Assembly (NCBI RefSeq): GCF_015223355.1
Contig: NZ_JADFFK010000024.1
Span: forward strand, 1-64,000
DNA length: 64,000 nt
DNA from: Salipiger mangrovisoli
GTDB lineage: Bacteria; Pseudomonadota; Alphaproteobacteria; Rhodobacterales; Rhodobacteraceae
Reading direction: 5' to 3'
In this document: positions 9,802 through 15,702 of the stretch, in pieces
Layout of the letters: each line of letters opens with the position of its first letter
Position numbering within the stretch: position 1 is the stretch's first letter
Notes under the pieces: generated by a model
What the model saw: only the letters and a program-made list of their open reading frames with translations
Database searches by the model: none
Told to the model about the DNA's origin: nothing
Made by a program: the position numbers and the translations under genes

Positions 9802-10701
9802 ATGAAGTACGTTTGTATCGGTACGGCCGCGCTGGCACTCCTGTCAGCCTGCGGCGACGGCAGCAAGAGCTCCAACAGCGGTTCGGCTGTCCCCGGCTTC
9901 ACGTCATTCAGCGCCATGGGGACGTCCGGTGACGGCACCTATCGCGCCAATGGCATGGCGCTTTCGACCAGCTACGTGACCGACGCGGAGGGCAATGTCA
10001 CCTCTGTCGGCGCGCCGGTTCTGGACCGGAACATCACCACGGATCTGACCTATGCGGGGGGCGAGCTGACTGGCGCGACGATCCGCACCAGCAAGGGGAC
10101 GATCACGCTCTCGACCGCCAATGGCGACACGTTCGACGTCACCTCGATCGACGGCGGCTTCCTGGCCACCAGCGCCGATGGCGACAGGTTCCTCGTTGCC
10201 GCGGACCCCTTCCAGCAGGGCTACGAGTATCAGACCTTCGGCACCTGGCAGACCGGGATGACCGGCACCAGCCGGGTCGCCGGAGCCGGCTCGGTGGGCA
10301 GCCGCACCTCGGCCAGCCAGATGCCGGCCACCGGCAGTGCCAGCTATTACGGCGACAGCCTCGGGCAGGTGATCACCGATGGCCAGGTGGCGGTCACCAC
10401 CTCCTATATCGCGGTGGACACGCCCGATTTCTCGACGGTCGAGATCTACAGCAGCGACACGATCACCGCCGATCCCCTCACCGGGGCAAAGATCGCCGAC
10501 CGGGCGGACCTGGATTTCTACGCCGCCGGCACGGTCAGCGGCACGGGGTTCGCCGCCGATATCGACACCGGCGTGCTGACCGGCGCGGTCGACGGGCAGT
10601 TCTACGGCAGCAACGCGCAGGAGGTCGGCGGCACCTTCTCGGGCACCACCGCCGACAGCACCTATATCGGTGCCTTCGGCGCGGTCGACGTCAGCCGCTG
10701 A
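9802..10701 (+). CDS. Surface lipoprotein with TbpB-like beta-barrel end, probable Slam substrate
   Basis: 299 residues. A lipoprotein signal peptide ends in the lipobox LSAC with C17 as the acylated residue, followed by a Ser/Gly-rich linker. The C-terminal half has the Gly/Thr/Ser-rich strand pattern of transferrin-binding-protein-like barrels, ending TGAVDGQFYGSNAQEVGGTF then SGTTADSTYIGAFGA, the classic closing motif of TbpB/HpuA/haemophilin-type proteins. The next gene, two bases on, encodes a Slam-type exporter, so this is probably its cargo, moved to the cell surface or released. The ligand is unknown; metal or haem capture is plausible from the fold. No Fur box was found in the 195-base upstream gap, where TATACT at 9786-9791 could be a -10 element. 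Confidence 0.8.
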   Translation: MKYVCIGTAALALLSACGDGSKSSNSGSAVPGFTSFSAMGTSGDGTYRANGMALSTSYVTDAEGNVTSVGAPVLDRNITTDLTYAGGELTGATIRTSKGTITLSTANGDTFDVTSIDGGFLATSADGDRFLVAADPFQQGYEYQTFGTWQTGMTGTSRVAGAGSVGSRTSASQMPATGSASYYGDSLGQVITDGQVAVTTSYIAVDTPDFSTVEIYSSDTITADPLTGAKIADRADLDFYAAGTVSGTGFAADIDTGVLTGAVDGQFYGSNAQEVGGTFSGTTADSTYIGAFGAVDVSR

Positions 10702-10703
10702 CC

Positions 10704-11975
10704 ATGCCCGCCCGCAAGGCCCTGCGCGCTGGCCCCCGCTGGGGGCTGGCCGCTGCGCTCGCGCTGGCCGCTCTGCTCCCGGCGGCCGAGGCGCGAGCGC
10801 AACAGGCCCCCGCCCCGGCGGCCGCCGAAATGGAGGCCGGGTTCCAGCAGGCGCTGGCCGCGCTGGCGCAGCGCCAGCCCGAGACCGCCGTCCGGCTGCT
10901 GCGCAGGCTGCTTGCCACCGATCCCGGCCTGCTGCGCGTCCGCCTCGAACTGGCGCGGGCGCTCTTCGAGGCCGGCGATTACGCGCAGTCGCGCGAACAG
11001 TTCCGCATCGTGCTGTCGAGCCCGGACCTGCCGCCGTCGGTGCGCGCCAACGTGATGCGCTTCATGCGGGCCATCGACGAGAAGCGCGGGCTGCGCACGC
11101 GGTTCTCGTTTGCCCTGCGCGCCCCCGAGGGCGCGGGCCGCAGCTACGACAGCGACCAGATCCAGTCCGTCCTCGGCGATCCGCCGATCGTCCTGTCGAT
11201 GACCCGAGAGGAGGCGCCGCTGACCGGCCTAGAGCTGTCCGGGGCGCTGCGCAAGCAATGGCCGCTGCGCACGCTTGCCGGCGGTGCTGGGCTGACCGGC
11301 TACGTTGCGGCCGAGGGCGATCTTTACCAGACCGGCGGCAGCGACTGGGACGAGCTGGGGGCCGAGCTGAGCGCCGGCCTGCAGCTGACCTGGCCGCAGA
11401 CGACGGCCTGGGCCGAGGTGATCGCGGGCACCGATTACTTCGGCGGCGAGCGGGTCGAGGACCGCTACGGGCTCGGCGTGGGGGTCACCTGGCGAAGCGT
11501 CTCGGGGCTGACCACGACGCTCGAGGGTGAGCTGATGACGGTGGACCTGGGGAGCGTGCCCGAGGTCGATGTGACCCGTTCGAGCGCCCGGCTTTCGGTG
11601 ATCCGCCCGCTGCGCGGCCGCGCGCAGATCGCCGGCAGCCTGTCGCTCCAGCACCAGCAGGCAGAGCGCGACGACCTGTCCTACGATTATGCCGAGCTGC
11701 GGCTTGGCGCGCGCAGCGAGGTCGGCGGCGGCTTCCTGATCGAGCCGTCGGTCTATGCCGCGGCCTTCGACCAGGTCGGCGCCTCGCCGGTGCTGGGCAA
11801 GACGCGCAACGAAACCGAATACGGCATCGAGCTGCGCATCGACAAGACCGACAGCTTCCTGTTCGGACGGCTCACACCCTATGTGCAGATCGAGGCGGCG
11901 CGGCGCGAGAGCAATTTCGACGCCTACAGCTATCGCGATCTGCGGCTCAGTGCCGGGCTGACCAGCGCGTTCTGA
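10704..11975 (+). CDS. Slam-type outer-membrane lipoprotein exporter (type XI secretion)
   Basis: 423 residues. A signal peptide (about 1-33, ending AEARAQ) leads into a TPR-rich periplasmic domain (about 40-115: FQQALAALAQRQPETAVRLL, LARALFEAGDYAQSREQFRI), then a beta-barrel of alternating residues to the terminal phenylalanine (SAGLTSAF), as usual for barrel proteins. This is the layout of Slam (surface lipoprotein assembly modulator, former DUF560), which moves TbpB-like proteins across the outer membrane. Neisserial Slam1 is somewhat longer, so this is a compact version. It starts two bases after the stop of the TbpB-like lipoprotein, so cargo and exporter form an operon. Confidence 0.8.
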   Translation: MPARKALRAGPRWGLAAALALAALLPAAEARAQQAPAPAAAEMEAGFQQALAALAQRQPETAVRLLRRLLATDPGLLRVRLELARALFEAGDYAQSREQFRIVLSSPDLPPSVRANVMRFMRAIDEKRGLRTRFSFALRAPEGAGRSYDSDQIQSVLGDPPIVLSMTREEAPLTGLELSGALRKQWPLRTLAGGAGLTGYVAAEGDLYQTGGSDWDELGAELSAGLQLTWPQTTAWAEVIAGTDYFGGERVEDRYGLGVGVTWRSVSGLTTTLEGELMTVDLGSVPEVDVTRSSARLSVIRPLRGRAQIAGSLSLQHQQAERDDLSYDYAELRLGARSEVGGGFLIEPSVYAAAFDQVGASPVLGKTRNETEYGIELRIDKTDSFLFGRLTPYVQIEAARRESNFDAYSYRDLRLSAGLTSAF

Positions 11976-11999: not shown

Positions 12000-12008
12000 C
12001 CCCGCATG

Positions 12009-13670
12009 CTAGATCGCCGTCTTCTTCAACCAGGCGCTCATTTCGCGCAGCCGGTCCTCGGCGGCGCTGCCGAAGCCGATCGCATGCAGGTAGTCGCGCA
12101 CCAGCCCCTTGCCGGGATCGATCTGCGCGCTCACCCCCGCCTCTTCCAGGGCCTCGGCATAGGCGATGCCGCTGTCGCGCAGCGGGTCATGCTCGGCCAG
12201 CGCCAGATAGGCCGGCGGCAGCCCGTCGTGCGAGCTTGCCAGCAGCGGCGCGACCAGTGGATCGCTGTAGCGCAGCTGGGTGTCCGGGCAATATTGCACA
12301 TGCGCCGAGAGCAGCTGCGCCAGCGTCCAGAGCGGGCCTTCGGCATATTCCGTGCAGGAGGGCCGCGCGGTGTCGAAGTCGCAGATCGGGTAGATCAGCA
12401 GCTGCGCCGAAAGCGCGATGCCCGCCTCGCGGCAGAGCAACGTGGCCGCCGCGGCGAGGTTGCCGCCCGCGCCATCGCCGCCGATCGCCAGCCGCGCCGG
12501 ATCGAGGCCGAGCATCTCGGCCTGCTCGCGGGCCCAGAGCAGCACCGCGGGCACCTGCCCCAGCGCCTCGGGGTAGGTGTGTTCGGGCGCCAGCGCGTAG
12601 TCCACCGAGATCACCAGGTGCCCCGACCAGGCGGCGAGCCGCGCGGTGATGTTCCAATGGGTCTCGGGGCTGCCCTGACGCCAGGCCCCGCCGTGCAGGT
12701 AGATCAAGGCGGGCAGCGGACCCTGACCCGCCGGGCGGAACAGCCGCACCCGCACCGGGCCGCTGTCGGTGTCGATCCAATGCTCTTCGTCGGTCTCGAC
12801 CCCCTCGGGGCTGGGCAGGCGCATGGAGCGCGAGACGGATTCGAAATGCAGCCGGCGGGTGGCGGCGTCGCCCTCGGTCGGCAGCGTTGCCCAGGTGGCG
12901 TCCCAGGTCTCGCGGAAGCGGTAGATGTCGGGGTGGATGGCGCGGGTCTCGGTGATCGGCCGGGCCGAGGCTTCCTCGACCGAGAGCCCCGGTTTCATCA
13001 CGAAGCGCAGCAGCATGTCGCCGACATGGCGGCGCAGCTGCTGCTGGCCCTTGGGTTGGAACAGCGTGTCGCCGAAGAGGCTGGAAAAGGTCGCCCGGTT
13101 TGCGACGTTGAAGATCGCCAGCGCCGAGATGTGCCAATGCAGCTCGAGCGCGGTCAGGCCGCGGCGGAACAGCCCTTCGGCGCAGCCGCGCTGATAGATC
13201 TGGTCGAGCAGGCGGATCGCCGAGATGTTCTGCCCGGAGAGGTCCCCGGCCCTTTCCATGTGGCGCGCCTTTTCCAGGTTCTCGACCATCACCAGCCGCA
13301 CGAAATCCGCGTGTTCGGCATGGTGGTCGAAGGTGAATTCCGCCAGCCGCCGCAGCGCCTCGACCGGGTGCAGGCTGGCCAGTTCCAGCCGGTCTTCGGC
13401 GGCGCGCACGCGCGCGTAGGCATCGGCGAGCACCGCGCGGTAGAGCCCTTCCTTGTCGCCGAAGTAATAGTAGATCATTCGCTTCGAGGTCTCGGTGCCC
13501 GCAGCGATGTCGTCGATCTTGGCGCCGGTCAGGCCGTGCTCGACAAAAGCCTTGCGGGCGACCTCGAGAATATTGGCGCGCACCGCCTCGGGGTTCTGCT
13601 TCCAGTGACGCCGCGACGCCCCATTGGCATCATGCTCCGAGTCGCCTTTGATCACGGTGCTGTCCTCCAT
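12009..13670 (-). CDS. TetR-type regulator fused to an HSL-family alpha/beta-hydrolase fold lacking its catalytic serine
   Basis: 553 residues. The N-terminal domain (about 25-215) is a TetR/AcrR regulator with the helix-turn-helix KIDDIAAGTETSKRMIYYYF. The C-terminal domain (about 265-550) is a hormone-sensitive-lipase type hydrolase with the oxyanion motif YLHGGAW, then IGGDGAGGNLAA, AEHDPLRD and the histidine in DYLHAIGF. The family nucleophile motif is GDSAGG; here residue 400 is Gly (codon GGC), one base change from AGC. The acid and histidine remain. I infer a regulator that uses a dead esterase pocket to sense an ester, lactone or acyl ligand; loss of an ancestral activity by mutation is the alternative. 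Start ATG 13670 follows GGAGAG. No frameshift separates the domains. Confidence 0.85.
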   Translation of the reverse strand: MEDSTVIKGDSEHDANGASRRHWKQNPEAVRANILEVARKAFVEHGLTGAKIDDIAAGTETSKRMIYYYFGDKEGLYRAVLADAYARVRAAEDRLELASLHPVEALRRLAEFTFDHHAEHADFVRLVMVENLEKARHMERAGDLSGQNISAIRLLDQIYQRGCAEGLFRRGLTALELHWHISALAIFNVANRATFSSLFGDTLFQPKGQQQLRRHVGDMLLRFVMKPGLSVEEASARPITETRAIHPDIYRFRETWDATWATLPTEGDAATRRLHFESVSRSMRLPSPEGVETDEEHWIDTDSGPVRVRLFRPAGQGPLPALIYLHGGAWRQGSPETHWNITARLAAWSGHLVISVDYALAPEHTYPEALGQVPAVLLWAREQAEMLGLDPARLAIGGDGAGGNLAAAATLLCREAGIALSAQLLIYPICDFDTARPSCTEYAEGPLWTLAQLLSAHVQYCPDTQLRYSDPLVAPLLASSHDGLPPAYLALAEHDPLRDSGIAYAEALEEAGVSAQIDPGKGLVRDYLHAIGFGSAAEDRLREMSAWLKKTAI

Positions 13671-14030
13671 AAAAATCTCTCCACAAAAAATCACGGTCAG
13701 GGACTGCGGTCCCGGCCTGCCTTGGTTCAAAGATCGCGCCAAGAGCTTGAGCTCATTCGTTAATTTGTCCAGGCGCGAGCGGCATGCGCCGAAAATGCAG
13801 CGTTAATTAAACAGATCGTTAAAATTTGACGCCCCGCGGGCCGGGTCAGGACCACCGAAACATGGTGCCCCCGCGGACCCGACGCGGTGCGCTACATCTA
13901 TAGGTATAATGAAAATCACCCCGCGTCACGACCGGAGCGGATGAAACTGCCCTGCTCGTACATTTCTGATGCCAATGCGCGTCAAGCTTTGCCCCGGTGC
14001 CTGCCGGTTGGGCACCGCGGGGAGCCCGGC
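13671..14030. promoter_or_regulatory. Intergenic region with three CGTTAA repeats upstream of the TetR fusion
   Basis: This 360-base gap has no gene. The part next to the regulator is AT-rich and carries three direct copies of CGTTAA at 13758-13763, 13801-13806 and 13817-13822, the last two within TTAATTAA-rich sequence. A TetR protein commonly controls its own promoter, so these could be operator half-sites. Further right TATAAT occurs at about 13909-13914, with no matching -35 box recognised. Confidence 0.35.
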
Positions 14031-15548
14031 CTAGGGTTTGGCCGGCCCGTCCTCCGGTTGCCGGGCCTGTCCCGCCAGCGCCCAGCGGGAGAGCGGCCAG
14101 GACAGGGCGATGAGCACCAGCCCGGCGACGGCGCTGCCGAAGAACAGCTGGTTGAACAGCCCCGGCAGGGCAGAGGGGGTTTCCGTGTCCATGCCCGCCG
14201 CCAGCAGCCCGGCCAGCAGGTTGCCGAGCGAGGCGGCGACGAACCAGAAGCCCATCATCTGGCTGACGAAACGCTCCGGCGCGAGCCGCGAGAAGGTCGA
14301 CAGCCCCACCGGGCTGAGCAGCAGCTCGGCGCAGGTGTGGATGAAGAAGGTGGCGATGAGGAACAGCGCCGAGACCTTGGCGCCGGTCATGGCGATCTTG
14401 GCCGCCGGCACGAGGATCCAGAAGCCGAGGCCGACCAGCACCAGTGCCAGCCCGAACTTGACGAAGACCGAGATCTCCCAGCCGCGGTCCTGCGCCCAGG
14501 TCCAGAAGGCGGCGAAGAGCGGCGTCAGCAGGATGATGAAGGCCGGGTTGAGGTTCTGGAACCACGAGGCGGGCACCTCGAAGCCGACGAGGTCGCGGCG
14601 GGTCAGCTCGGCGGCGAAGATCGACAGCGACGATCCGGCCTGCTCGAAGCGCGACCAGAACACCGCCGCGCCGACGAAGAGCACCGCCAGCACGATCATC
14701 CGCTTCTTCTCGTCGGCCGAGAGGTCTCCGGCGACGAAGATGTTGAGGAAGAAGCCCACGGCGATGGTCACGATCAGCACGCCCGTCGCCTGCGCCACGC
14801 CCTCGGCGCTGCCGACGTCGATGGTGCCGCTGCCGATCAGCACCGCAAGCAGCGCCACCACCGCAGCGGTGATGCCGAGGCTGACCATGCGGTCGCGCCG
14901 ATGGGTCGCCGCATCGACCAGCTTGGGCGGTGGCCGCTCGCCCTTGCCGCGCAGCGAGCGGTTGCCGGCATAGAGGAAGTTGACCAGCCCCAGCGCCATC
15001 GCAAGCGCCGCCGCGCCGAAGCCCCAGTGCCAGCCCCAGACCTCGCCGAGATAGCCGGCGATGAAGCCGCCGAGGATCGCGCCGAGATTGATGCCCATGT
15101 AGAAGAACGAGAAGCCCGCATCGCGCCCGCCGACATCGTCCTTGTCGTAGAGCTCGCCCACCATGGTCGAGATATTGGGCTTCAGCAGCCCCGTGCCCAC
15201 CGCGATGCAGACAAGTCCGGCAAGGAAAATCCAGGCCGTCGAGCCGGAGATCGCCAGCAGGATGTGGCCGATGATGATCACCACCGCCCCGGCGATGATC
15301 GCCTTGCGCGCGCCCCAGAACCGGTCGGCGATCCAGCCGCCGGGCAGGGCGAGGATGTAAACGGCGGCCGAGTAGATGCCGTAGATGGCCACCGCCTCCG
15401 AGGTTTGCAGCCCCATCCCTCCGGTTTCCACCGCATCGACGAGGTAGAGCACGAGGATCGCCCGCATGCCGTAGAAGCTGAAGCGTTCCCACATCTCGAC
15501 GAGAAACAGCGAGGGCAACCCGGCGGGGTATCTTGCAAATCTGGACAT
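14031..15548 (-). CDS. POT/PTR2-family proton-coupled di- and tripeptide transporter
   Basis: 505 residues with 12-14 predicted hydrophobic helices. The PTR2 signatures are clear: ERFSFYGMRAILVLYL in the first helix (the ExxER-type region) and VGTGLLKPNISTMVGELYD with FFYMGINLGAILGGFIAGYL further on. Such carriers bring small peptides into the cytoplasm with protons. Start ATG 15548 fits the family N-terminus; an upstream in-frame codon would add a leader with no resemblance. It is divergent from the arabinofuranosidase operon and is not obviously co-regulated with it. Confidence 0.9.
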   Translation of the reverse strand: MSRFARYPAGLPSLFLVEMWERFSFYGMRAILVLYLVDAVETGGMGLQTSEAVAIYGIYSAAVYILALPGGWIADRFWGARKAIIAGAVVIIIGHILLAISGSTAWIFLAGLVCIAVGTGLLKPNISTMVGELYDKDDVGGRDAGFSFFYMGINLGAILGGFIAGYLGEVWGWHWGFGAAALAMALGLVNFLYAGNRSLRGKGERPPPKLVDAATHRRDRMVSLGITAAVVALLAVLIGSGTIDVGSAEGVAQATGVLIVTIAVGFFLNIFVAGDLSADEKKRMIVLAVLFVGAAVFWSRFEQAGSSLSIFAAELTRRDLVGFEVPASWFQNLNPAFIILLTPLFAAFWTWAQDRGWEISVFVKFGLALVLVGLGFWILVPAAKIAMTGAKVSALFLIATFFIHTCAELLLSPVGLSTFSRLAPERFVSQMMGFWFVAASLGNLLAGLLAAGMDTETPSALPGLFNQLFFGSAVAGLVLIALSWPLSRWALAGQARQPEDGPAKP

Positions 15549-15702
15549 CAAAGGCCTGCAACGAAAGCAATTCCCCGACGATAGCGCGAAAACCCGCAAG
15601 GCGCGAAGTATTTGGCGGAAGCTCGCCTAACTCAGGCGGCGGCTTGCCGACGCGGTCCCTGCCCCGGGGACAGGGTGATCTCCTTAACGGACGCATGAGT
15701 GG

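Follow-up and report, generated by a model that had tools for sequence, protein, structure and literature searches.

What becomes of an esterase joined in one protein with a transcriptional regulator once its catalytic residues are replaced? The question is raised by a gene in the 64-kb stretch of DNA analysed here (hereafter the window), the product of which combines a TetR regulator with an HSL-type hydrolase domain. The reading put forward below, for and against which the scales seem about level, is that of an autoregulated TetR repressor, whose fused HSL-like esterase has turned into a pseudoenzyme and is retained for allostery or for binding a ligand.

The fused gene and its catalytic residues

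An earlier note, made from the letters of the window, had claimed that the TetR protein and the esterase share one uninterrupted frame. This is borne out: the frame (12009-13670, minus strand) is open throughout and encodes 553 aa without interruption, and three Pfam domains score above their cut-offs (Table 1). The TetR part is recognized by PF00440 (TetR_N; 46.4 bits vs. the cut-off of 24) and PF17938 (135.8 bits vs. 26.2), and the hydrolase part by PF07859 (Abhydrolase_3; 191.4 bits) along with the hydrolase fold and the HGG oxyanion motif. A single CDS of like make-up is present in the plasmid records of three relatives (553 aa in two, 559 aa in one); four plasmid records give the fusion no other name than “alpha/beta hydrolase fold domain-containing protein”. 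An antisense open frame of 585 codons (window positions 12006-13763, plus strand) overlies the gene and is probably an artefact of the high G+C content.

Table 1. Features of the fused gene and its surroundings, in window positions
Feature	Position	Strand	Basis
Fused gene, TetR regulator and HSL-type pseudo-esterase, 553 aa	12009..13670	-	Frame, Pfam domains
TetR_N DNA-binding domain, residues 34-80	13431..13571	-	Pfam; includes TSKRMIYYY
TetR_C_29 domain, residues 102-219	13014..13367	-	Pfam
Start of the hydrolase domain, two helices, residues 245-300, read as N-terminal cap	12771..12938	-	Structure model, identity
Abhydrolase_3 match, residues 322-525	12096..12707	-	Pfam, structure model, Foldseek
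HGGAW oxyanion-hole motif, residues 326-330, kept	12681..12695	-	Family alignment
Gly400 (GGC) in the position of the nucleophile Ser	12471..12473	-	Family alignment
Asp495, position of the catalytic acid, kept	12186..12188	-	Family alignment
Arg525 (CGC) in the position of the catalytic His	12096..12098	-	Est2 and family alignments
Predicted operator, TTTTAACGATCTGTTTAATT on the minus strand, 134 bases from the start codon	13805..13824	.	EM operator model
POT-family oligopeptide:H+ symporter, upstream of the fusion, adjoining it in all seven Alloyangia-clade genomes	14031..15599	-	
Surface lipoprotein assembly modifier-like protein, convergent neighbour, same seven genomes	10704..11975	+	

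The AlphaFold2 model (73 rows) has a mean pLDDT of 89.7 and a pTM of 0.61, the latter leaving the placement of the domains uncertain. Among the 50 Foldseek matches listed, the titles are nearly all those of esterases or lipases, with a best target-normalised TM of 0.94. Two model helices (247-260 and 269-282) lie within residues 245-300, a stretch which we take to be a cap by analogy with HSL enzymes.

The family alignment agrees with the earlier note that the GDSAGG elbow has become GDGAGG, with Gly400 encoded by GGC, and that the oxyanion motif HGGAW and the acid Asp495 are retained. The note had also stated that the histidine remains, and here it has to be corrected: in both the Est2 and the family alignments, the catalytic His of GLIHGY aligns to Arg525 of GLVRDY, so the pair Arg525-Asp526 stands where His-Gly is expected. 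His529 was considered as the catalytic His and rejected, its column being Arg in 98% of the 53 full-triad rows. Instead of a Ser-Asp-His triad, the window protein possesses Gly400, Asp495, and Arg525, i.e., two of the three triad residues are gone. A sequencing error was rejected as an explanation, since the identical Gly and Arg occur in all seven full-length copies from the 20 genus genomes searched. Judging from these residues, the window protein has almost certainly lost catalysis.

Relatives and the order of the losses

The full-length fusion is present in 7 of the 20 genus genomes (79-100% identity). These seven copies, that of the window included, are referred to as the Alloyangia clade (the contigs matched by three of them bear the name Alloyangia pacifica or A. 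mangrovi); all are uninterrupted, and the six others are 79-88% identical to the window copy. Further sampling covered 394 genomes of the family, 390 of the order, 385 of the class, and 398 of the phylum, and the contig scan took the best 80 of 348 relatives, corresponding to 78 loci. Triads were counted in 62 distinct hydrolases of at least 42% identity, 31 unfused and 31 fused. Ser-Asp-His, called here the full triad in the sense of residues read from the sequence and not of proven activity, is found in 31/31 unfused and in 22/31 fused hydrolases; the remaining fused ones display Gly-Asp-Arg (the seven of the Alloyangia clade) or Gly-Asp-His (two from Martelella). The earlier note had proposed to tabulate the nucleophile across homologs of the same architecture, its reading to be refuted if most of them kept Ser and this gene alone were mutated: the first part holds (22/31), the second does not, as 9 of the 31 are dead and belong to one clade.

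In the hydrolase-domain tree, the nine dead hydrolases form a single clade inside the main fused clade (support 100/98), and this clade is recovered again (99/92) from an alignment of both domains in which eight motif columns had been masked; the roots were placed by midpoint. Its sister in the both-domain tree (100/98) is L051 from Pseudooceanicola sediminis, with Ser-Asp-His. Upon removal of either Martelella or Alloyangia from the tree, the remaining half still joins L051, which speaks against long-branch attraction. A quick tree of the TetR part only (130 rows) has L051 among the nine; a clade of the nine is not rejected by these data (p-AU 0.694), and the tree holding them together had the higher likelihood. 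Two independent losses of Ser, in the Alloyangia clade and in Martelella, were rejected in favour of a single loss on the basis of the hydrolase and the masked two-domain trees. Most likely, as far as can be told from the residues and the trees, Ser was lost once and His afterwards. The loss of Ser would also precede the loss of the genomic context, because Martelella retains the operon context described below.

In both the TetR and the hydrolase trees, a two-copy TetR-hydrolase fusion of another genome (G240, loci L119 and L155) branches outside the main fused clade and is possibly independent; the TetR-only tree suggests a second fusion event there.

Gene neighbourhood and the predicted operator

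Many relatives are divergent from genes for shikimate dehydrogenase, the TRAP components DctP/DctQ/DctM, and a QuiC-like 3-dehydroshikimate dehydratase (a shikimate/quinate-type operon). A Martelella fusion (L048) is flanked by protocatechuate 3,4-dioxygenase genes, and a type II 3-dehydroquinate dehydratase gene is near the fusion on a Sagittula plasmid. The representative shikimate dehydrogenase scores 383.6 bits, over the subfamily cut-off of 235, and the QuiC representative 713.8 bits, under the equivalog cut-off of 1200. The substrate of the full-triad relatives is presumably a shikimate or quinate ester, as judged from the neighbour genes.

A shikimate dehydrogenase or QuiC gene occurs within six genes of 13/22 full-triad fused, 18/22 split, and 26/30 TetR-alone loci, and TRAP genes are nearby in 20/22, 20/22, and 22/30, respectively, the lower counts being minima, since the 5 kb flanks clip many loci. 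Both kinds of neighbours are found in Martelella (2/2) and in none of the Alloyangia clade (0/7), so adjacency to the operon, expected of a shikimate/quinate regulator, is seen at none of its seven loci. Directly behind the split hydrolase, several loci harbor DUF3237 proteins (e.g., L085:5937-6410 and L067:6517-7038). In one genome (G086, L184 and L185), the operon is accompanied by an unfused hydrolase that belongs to the fused clade, and the TetR gene lies on another contig, which looks like fission of the fusion.

The Alloyangia-clade gene sits between the POT transporter and a pair of Slam-like and TbpB-like genes, and in three complete records it is carried by plasmids that belong to a single replicon cluster. 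In the window, the TbpB-like lipoprotein and the surface lipoprotein assembly modifier-like protein are in tandem (9802-11975). The linkage to the peptide transporter was rejected as functional evidence: the transporter, the Slam-like gene, and the fusion share one and the same set of 7 among the 20 genus genomes, and their co-occurrence is equally explained by the shared replicon. The idea that the gene had moved to a plasmid was dropped, as full-triad fusions are on plasmids too (three of the six plasmid records with the whole gene, the records being assigned by organism and the triad read for the L240, G257, and G630 copies).

As for other family members, contig C55 of the window genome contains a shikimate/quinate-type operon, which has its own, separate TetR (55% identity). 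Such a TetR is present at 52-55% identity in six of the seven Alloyangia-clade genomes; in the seventh (G018), none exceeds 30%. A second family member was not found in the two Martelella genomes searched, which contain the fusion and a TetR at 35-36%, one of them also with two general hydrolase matches (39% and 35%).

The operator was modelled by EM on the promoters of 75 TetR-alone genes at a width of 20. The palindrome obtained, AATgAACcanntgGTTcATT, scores 758 vs. 63 for Markov-sampled sequence; the latter replaced a reversed-sequence control, which is invalid for dyads because a reversed dyad is a dyad again. A site of at least 10 bits is present in 74/75 training promoters and, outside the training set, in 9/9 promoters of dead fusions, 21/21 of full-triad fusions, and 24/25 of split genes. 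The background quantiles of this promoter scoring are inflated by overlapping site-rich loci, and the window scan was relied on instead: of 63,981 positions, a single one reaches 10 bits, the site upstream of the fusion (17.0 bits), the next distinct site having 7.3. The best site of the six other Alloyangia-clade 20-kb loci is in the same place. When the seven intergenic stretches are aligned, the operator and some other patches are seen to be conserved amid diverged sequence. The recognition-helix stretch TSKRMIYYY is common to most fused and split relatives; IFYY or VFYY occurs in part of the TetR-alone rows, and the C55 TetR possesses IFYY for IYYY. The window protein very probably binds the predicted site.

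Further targets in its own genome were searched for with the Alloyangia-type pattern, which was matched without mismatch in the gene's own promoter only (the pattern being partly drawn from there) and, with up to three mismatches, seven times vs. six for the control. Three sites of the general palindrome type lie at C55 58918-58994; their half-sites and the recognition helix of the TetR there differ. Control of the C55 operon by the fusion is a guess, given that the C55 promoter belongs to the training set, the recognition helix of the C55 TetR is different, and G018 shows no separate TetR above 30%. A site one mismatch away from the general pattern, a candidate second target, was noticed at G000:C5:24156-24173 (L218); the nearby called genes match none of the shikimate/quinate operon clusters.

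Constraint on the hydrolase and its probable role

The view of the earlier note that the hydrolase is retained in spite of its lost catalytic residues is well supported: internal stops are absent from 9/9 dead-clade members, Ka/Ks is below 0.5 in each of the Alloyangia pairs, and the presumed cap is highly conserved. Among the Alloyangia pairs (Nei-Gojobori; 21 pairs of seven sequences, hence not independent), Ka/Ks amounts to 0.08-0.23 for the TetR part, 0-0.18 for residues 226-300, and 0.16-0.50 for residues 301-545. In independent pairs, the hydrolase values are 0.16-0.39 for dead (n = 4) vs. 0.07-0.25 for full-triad proteins (n = 7; p 0.024); the TetR values of the same pairs do not differ (p 0.79). 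The dead hydrolase is under purifying selection, weaker than in the full-triad relatives and far from neutral. A crude comparison of change in the hydrolase with that in the TetR part (ratio of 1.96 in Alloyangia vs. 1.06 in full-triad pairs) was set aside as confounded by divergence, the independent pairs giving p 0.16.

The constraint is unevenly distributed. Mean pairwise identity of the seven Alloyangia-clade proteins is 96.9% in residues 245-300, 80.2% in residues 301-545, and 88.8% in the TetR part, vs. 82.9, 82.6, and 80.9%, respectively, in seven full-triad relatives. Among positions up to six residues away from a catalytic one, 41/54 are invariant in the Alloyangia clade vs. 109/191 elsewhere (p 0.012), which is fewer than the 50/54 of the full-triad relatives (p 0.03); both this neighbourhood and the 245-300 stretch were picked after the data had been seen and are suggestive only. 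Conserved hydrolase positions are kept by the majority in 97/113 cases, and the lost ones show no significant concentration around the site (8/37 near vs. 8/76 far, p 0.15).

The weaker constraint on the hydrolase would likewise follow from a purely structural role. It is possible, if rather unlikely, that the dead esterase is a passenger, the TetR part by itself sensing a shikimate-type ligand and acting as the repressor, and the esterase merely stabilising or dimerising the protein. Such a role is in line with the intact TetR_C_29 domain, the preservation of 66/70 conserved TetR positions, the occurrence of TetR-alone relatives with a like operator beside a like operon (26/30), and the faster change of the hydrolase core, both against the TetR part and, relative to synonymous change, against the full-triad relatives. 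It accounts less readily for the higher conservation of residues 245-300 and of the near-site residues compared with the remaining Alloyangia-clade core, or for the full-length hydrolase in 9/9 dead fusions, although TetR alone is widespread.

The gene could also have lost its job on leaving the shikimate/quinate-type operon and be a pseudogene in the making, as the two missing triad residues, the context lost in 7/7 loci, and the relaxed hydrolase constraint might indicate. This is improbable: the seven copies are uninterrupted in spite of the divergence given above, every Alloyangia pair has a Ka/Ks below 0.5, the predicted operator is found in all seven, and, according to the tree, Ser was lost before the context that Martelella retains. 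The oxyanion motif, Asp495, and the intact modelled fold would be in line with an enzyme that has taken up a different nucleophile or reaction (e.g., via Asp399, or by using the pocket in the manner of a lyase). This is very improbable: both Ser400 and His525 are absent, Arg525-Asp526 replacing His-Gly, and we know of no HSL-type precedent.

The chances appear evenly divided that the dead domain, as read from its sequence, is a ligand-binding or allosteric part and not a passive one; the sensor role put forward in the earlier note is a putative one. For the repressor with a pseudoenzyme part, the following course seems the most likely. An ancestral TetR regulator and a Ser-Asp-His esterase would have been encoded by neighbouring genes beside a shikimate/quinate-type uptake and catabolism operon, presumably controlling it; the trees and synteny suggest that the two genes then fused. 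Ser would have changed to Gly in an ancestor shared by the Martelella and Alloyangia proteins; in Martelella, the fusion is still beside the operon. In the Alloyangia clade, His would have changed to Arg too, and the gene would have come to lie away from the operon, beside the peptide transporter, with its own operator kept. The TetR part, as a dimer, may bind the palindrome and repress the fused gene itself and, perhaps, the separate operon on C55 as well. Occupied by an ester or carboxylate, the dead pocket (or that of the TetR part) would shift the conserved cap helices and thereby alter the affinity for DNA, the ligand not being consumed. By analogy with GID1, the cap is the likeliest candidate for the switch; the conserved 245-300 stretch might instead serve as an interface between subunits of a dimer or between domains.

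Stages on the way from an enzyme to a part of a transcription factor seemingly coexist in living organisms: separate genes, a fused full-triad protein, a fused protein devoid of Ser, and one devoid of Ser and His, each with natural homologs for side-by-side comparison. The findings also point to shikimate/quinate-type operons in Alphaproteobacteria with TetR regulators that have an operator in common and some of which are fused to an esterase. In the open-access literature, the titles among the matches listed name neither a TetR-esterase fusion nor TetR regulators of such operons.

Among the known systems, the HSL-family esterases Est2, EstE1, and EstDL136 are alike in sequence and fold (36% identity to Est2, target-normalised TM of 0.93 to EstE1); in the NCBIfam comparison with LipP1, the window protein scores 233 bits, under the cut-off of 350. 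It differs from the bacterial HSL-family esterases in that it lacks Ser and His and is fused to a TetR. RutR-like TetR regulators share TetR_N and TetR_C_29, and RutR is the best NCBIfam regulator match; still, 41 bits vs. the cut-off of 368 show that the protein is not RutR, and the context of its relatives is of the shikimate/quinate and not the pyrimidine type. The operator of the fusion resembles what we take to be the RutR palindrome. The reuse of an enzyme fold within a transcription factor is known from the MocR/GabR and ROK repressors; those involve other DNA-binding and enzyme families, and in the present case full-triad relatives and dead descendants coexist today.

The plant gibberellin receptor GID1 is, according to the passages on it in PMC3531792, an HSL-derived, non-catalytic protein with the active-site His lost and lid helices over the pocket, which retains Ser for ligand contact and acts through DELLA proteins. 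As far as that account goes, the likeness consists in the HSL fold and the loss of the catalytic His (Arg525 in the window protein), and the difference in the Ser, kept there and replaced by Gly400 here, so that Ser and His are both absent, and in the hydrolase being covalently joined to the TetR. Tentatively, the fusion may be viewed as a counterpart of GID1 caught in steps (fusion, loss of Ser, then of His), which lead to a one-protein transcriptional receptor with the lid as the switch; its ligand would be an ester or carboxylate, either derived from shikimate or quinate or new.
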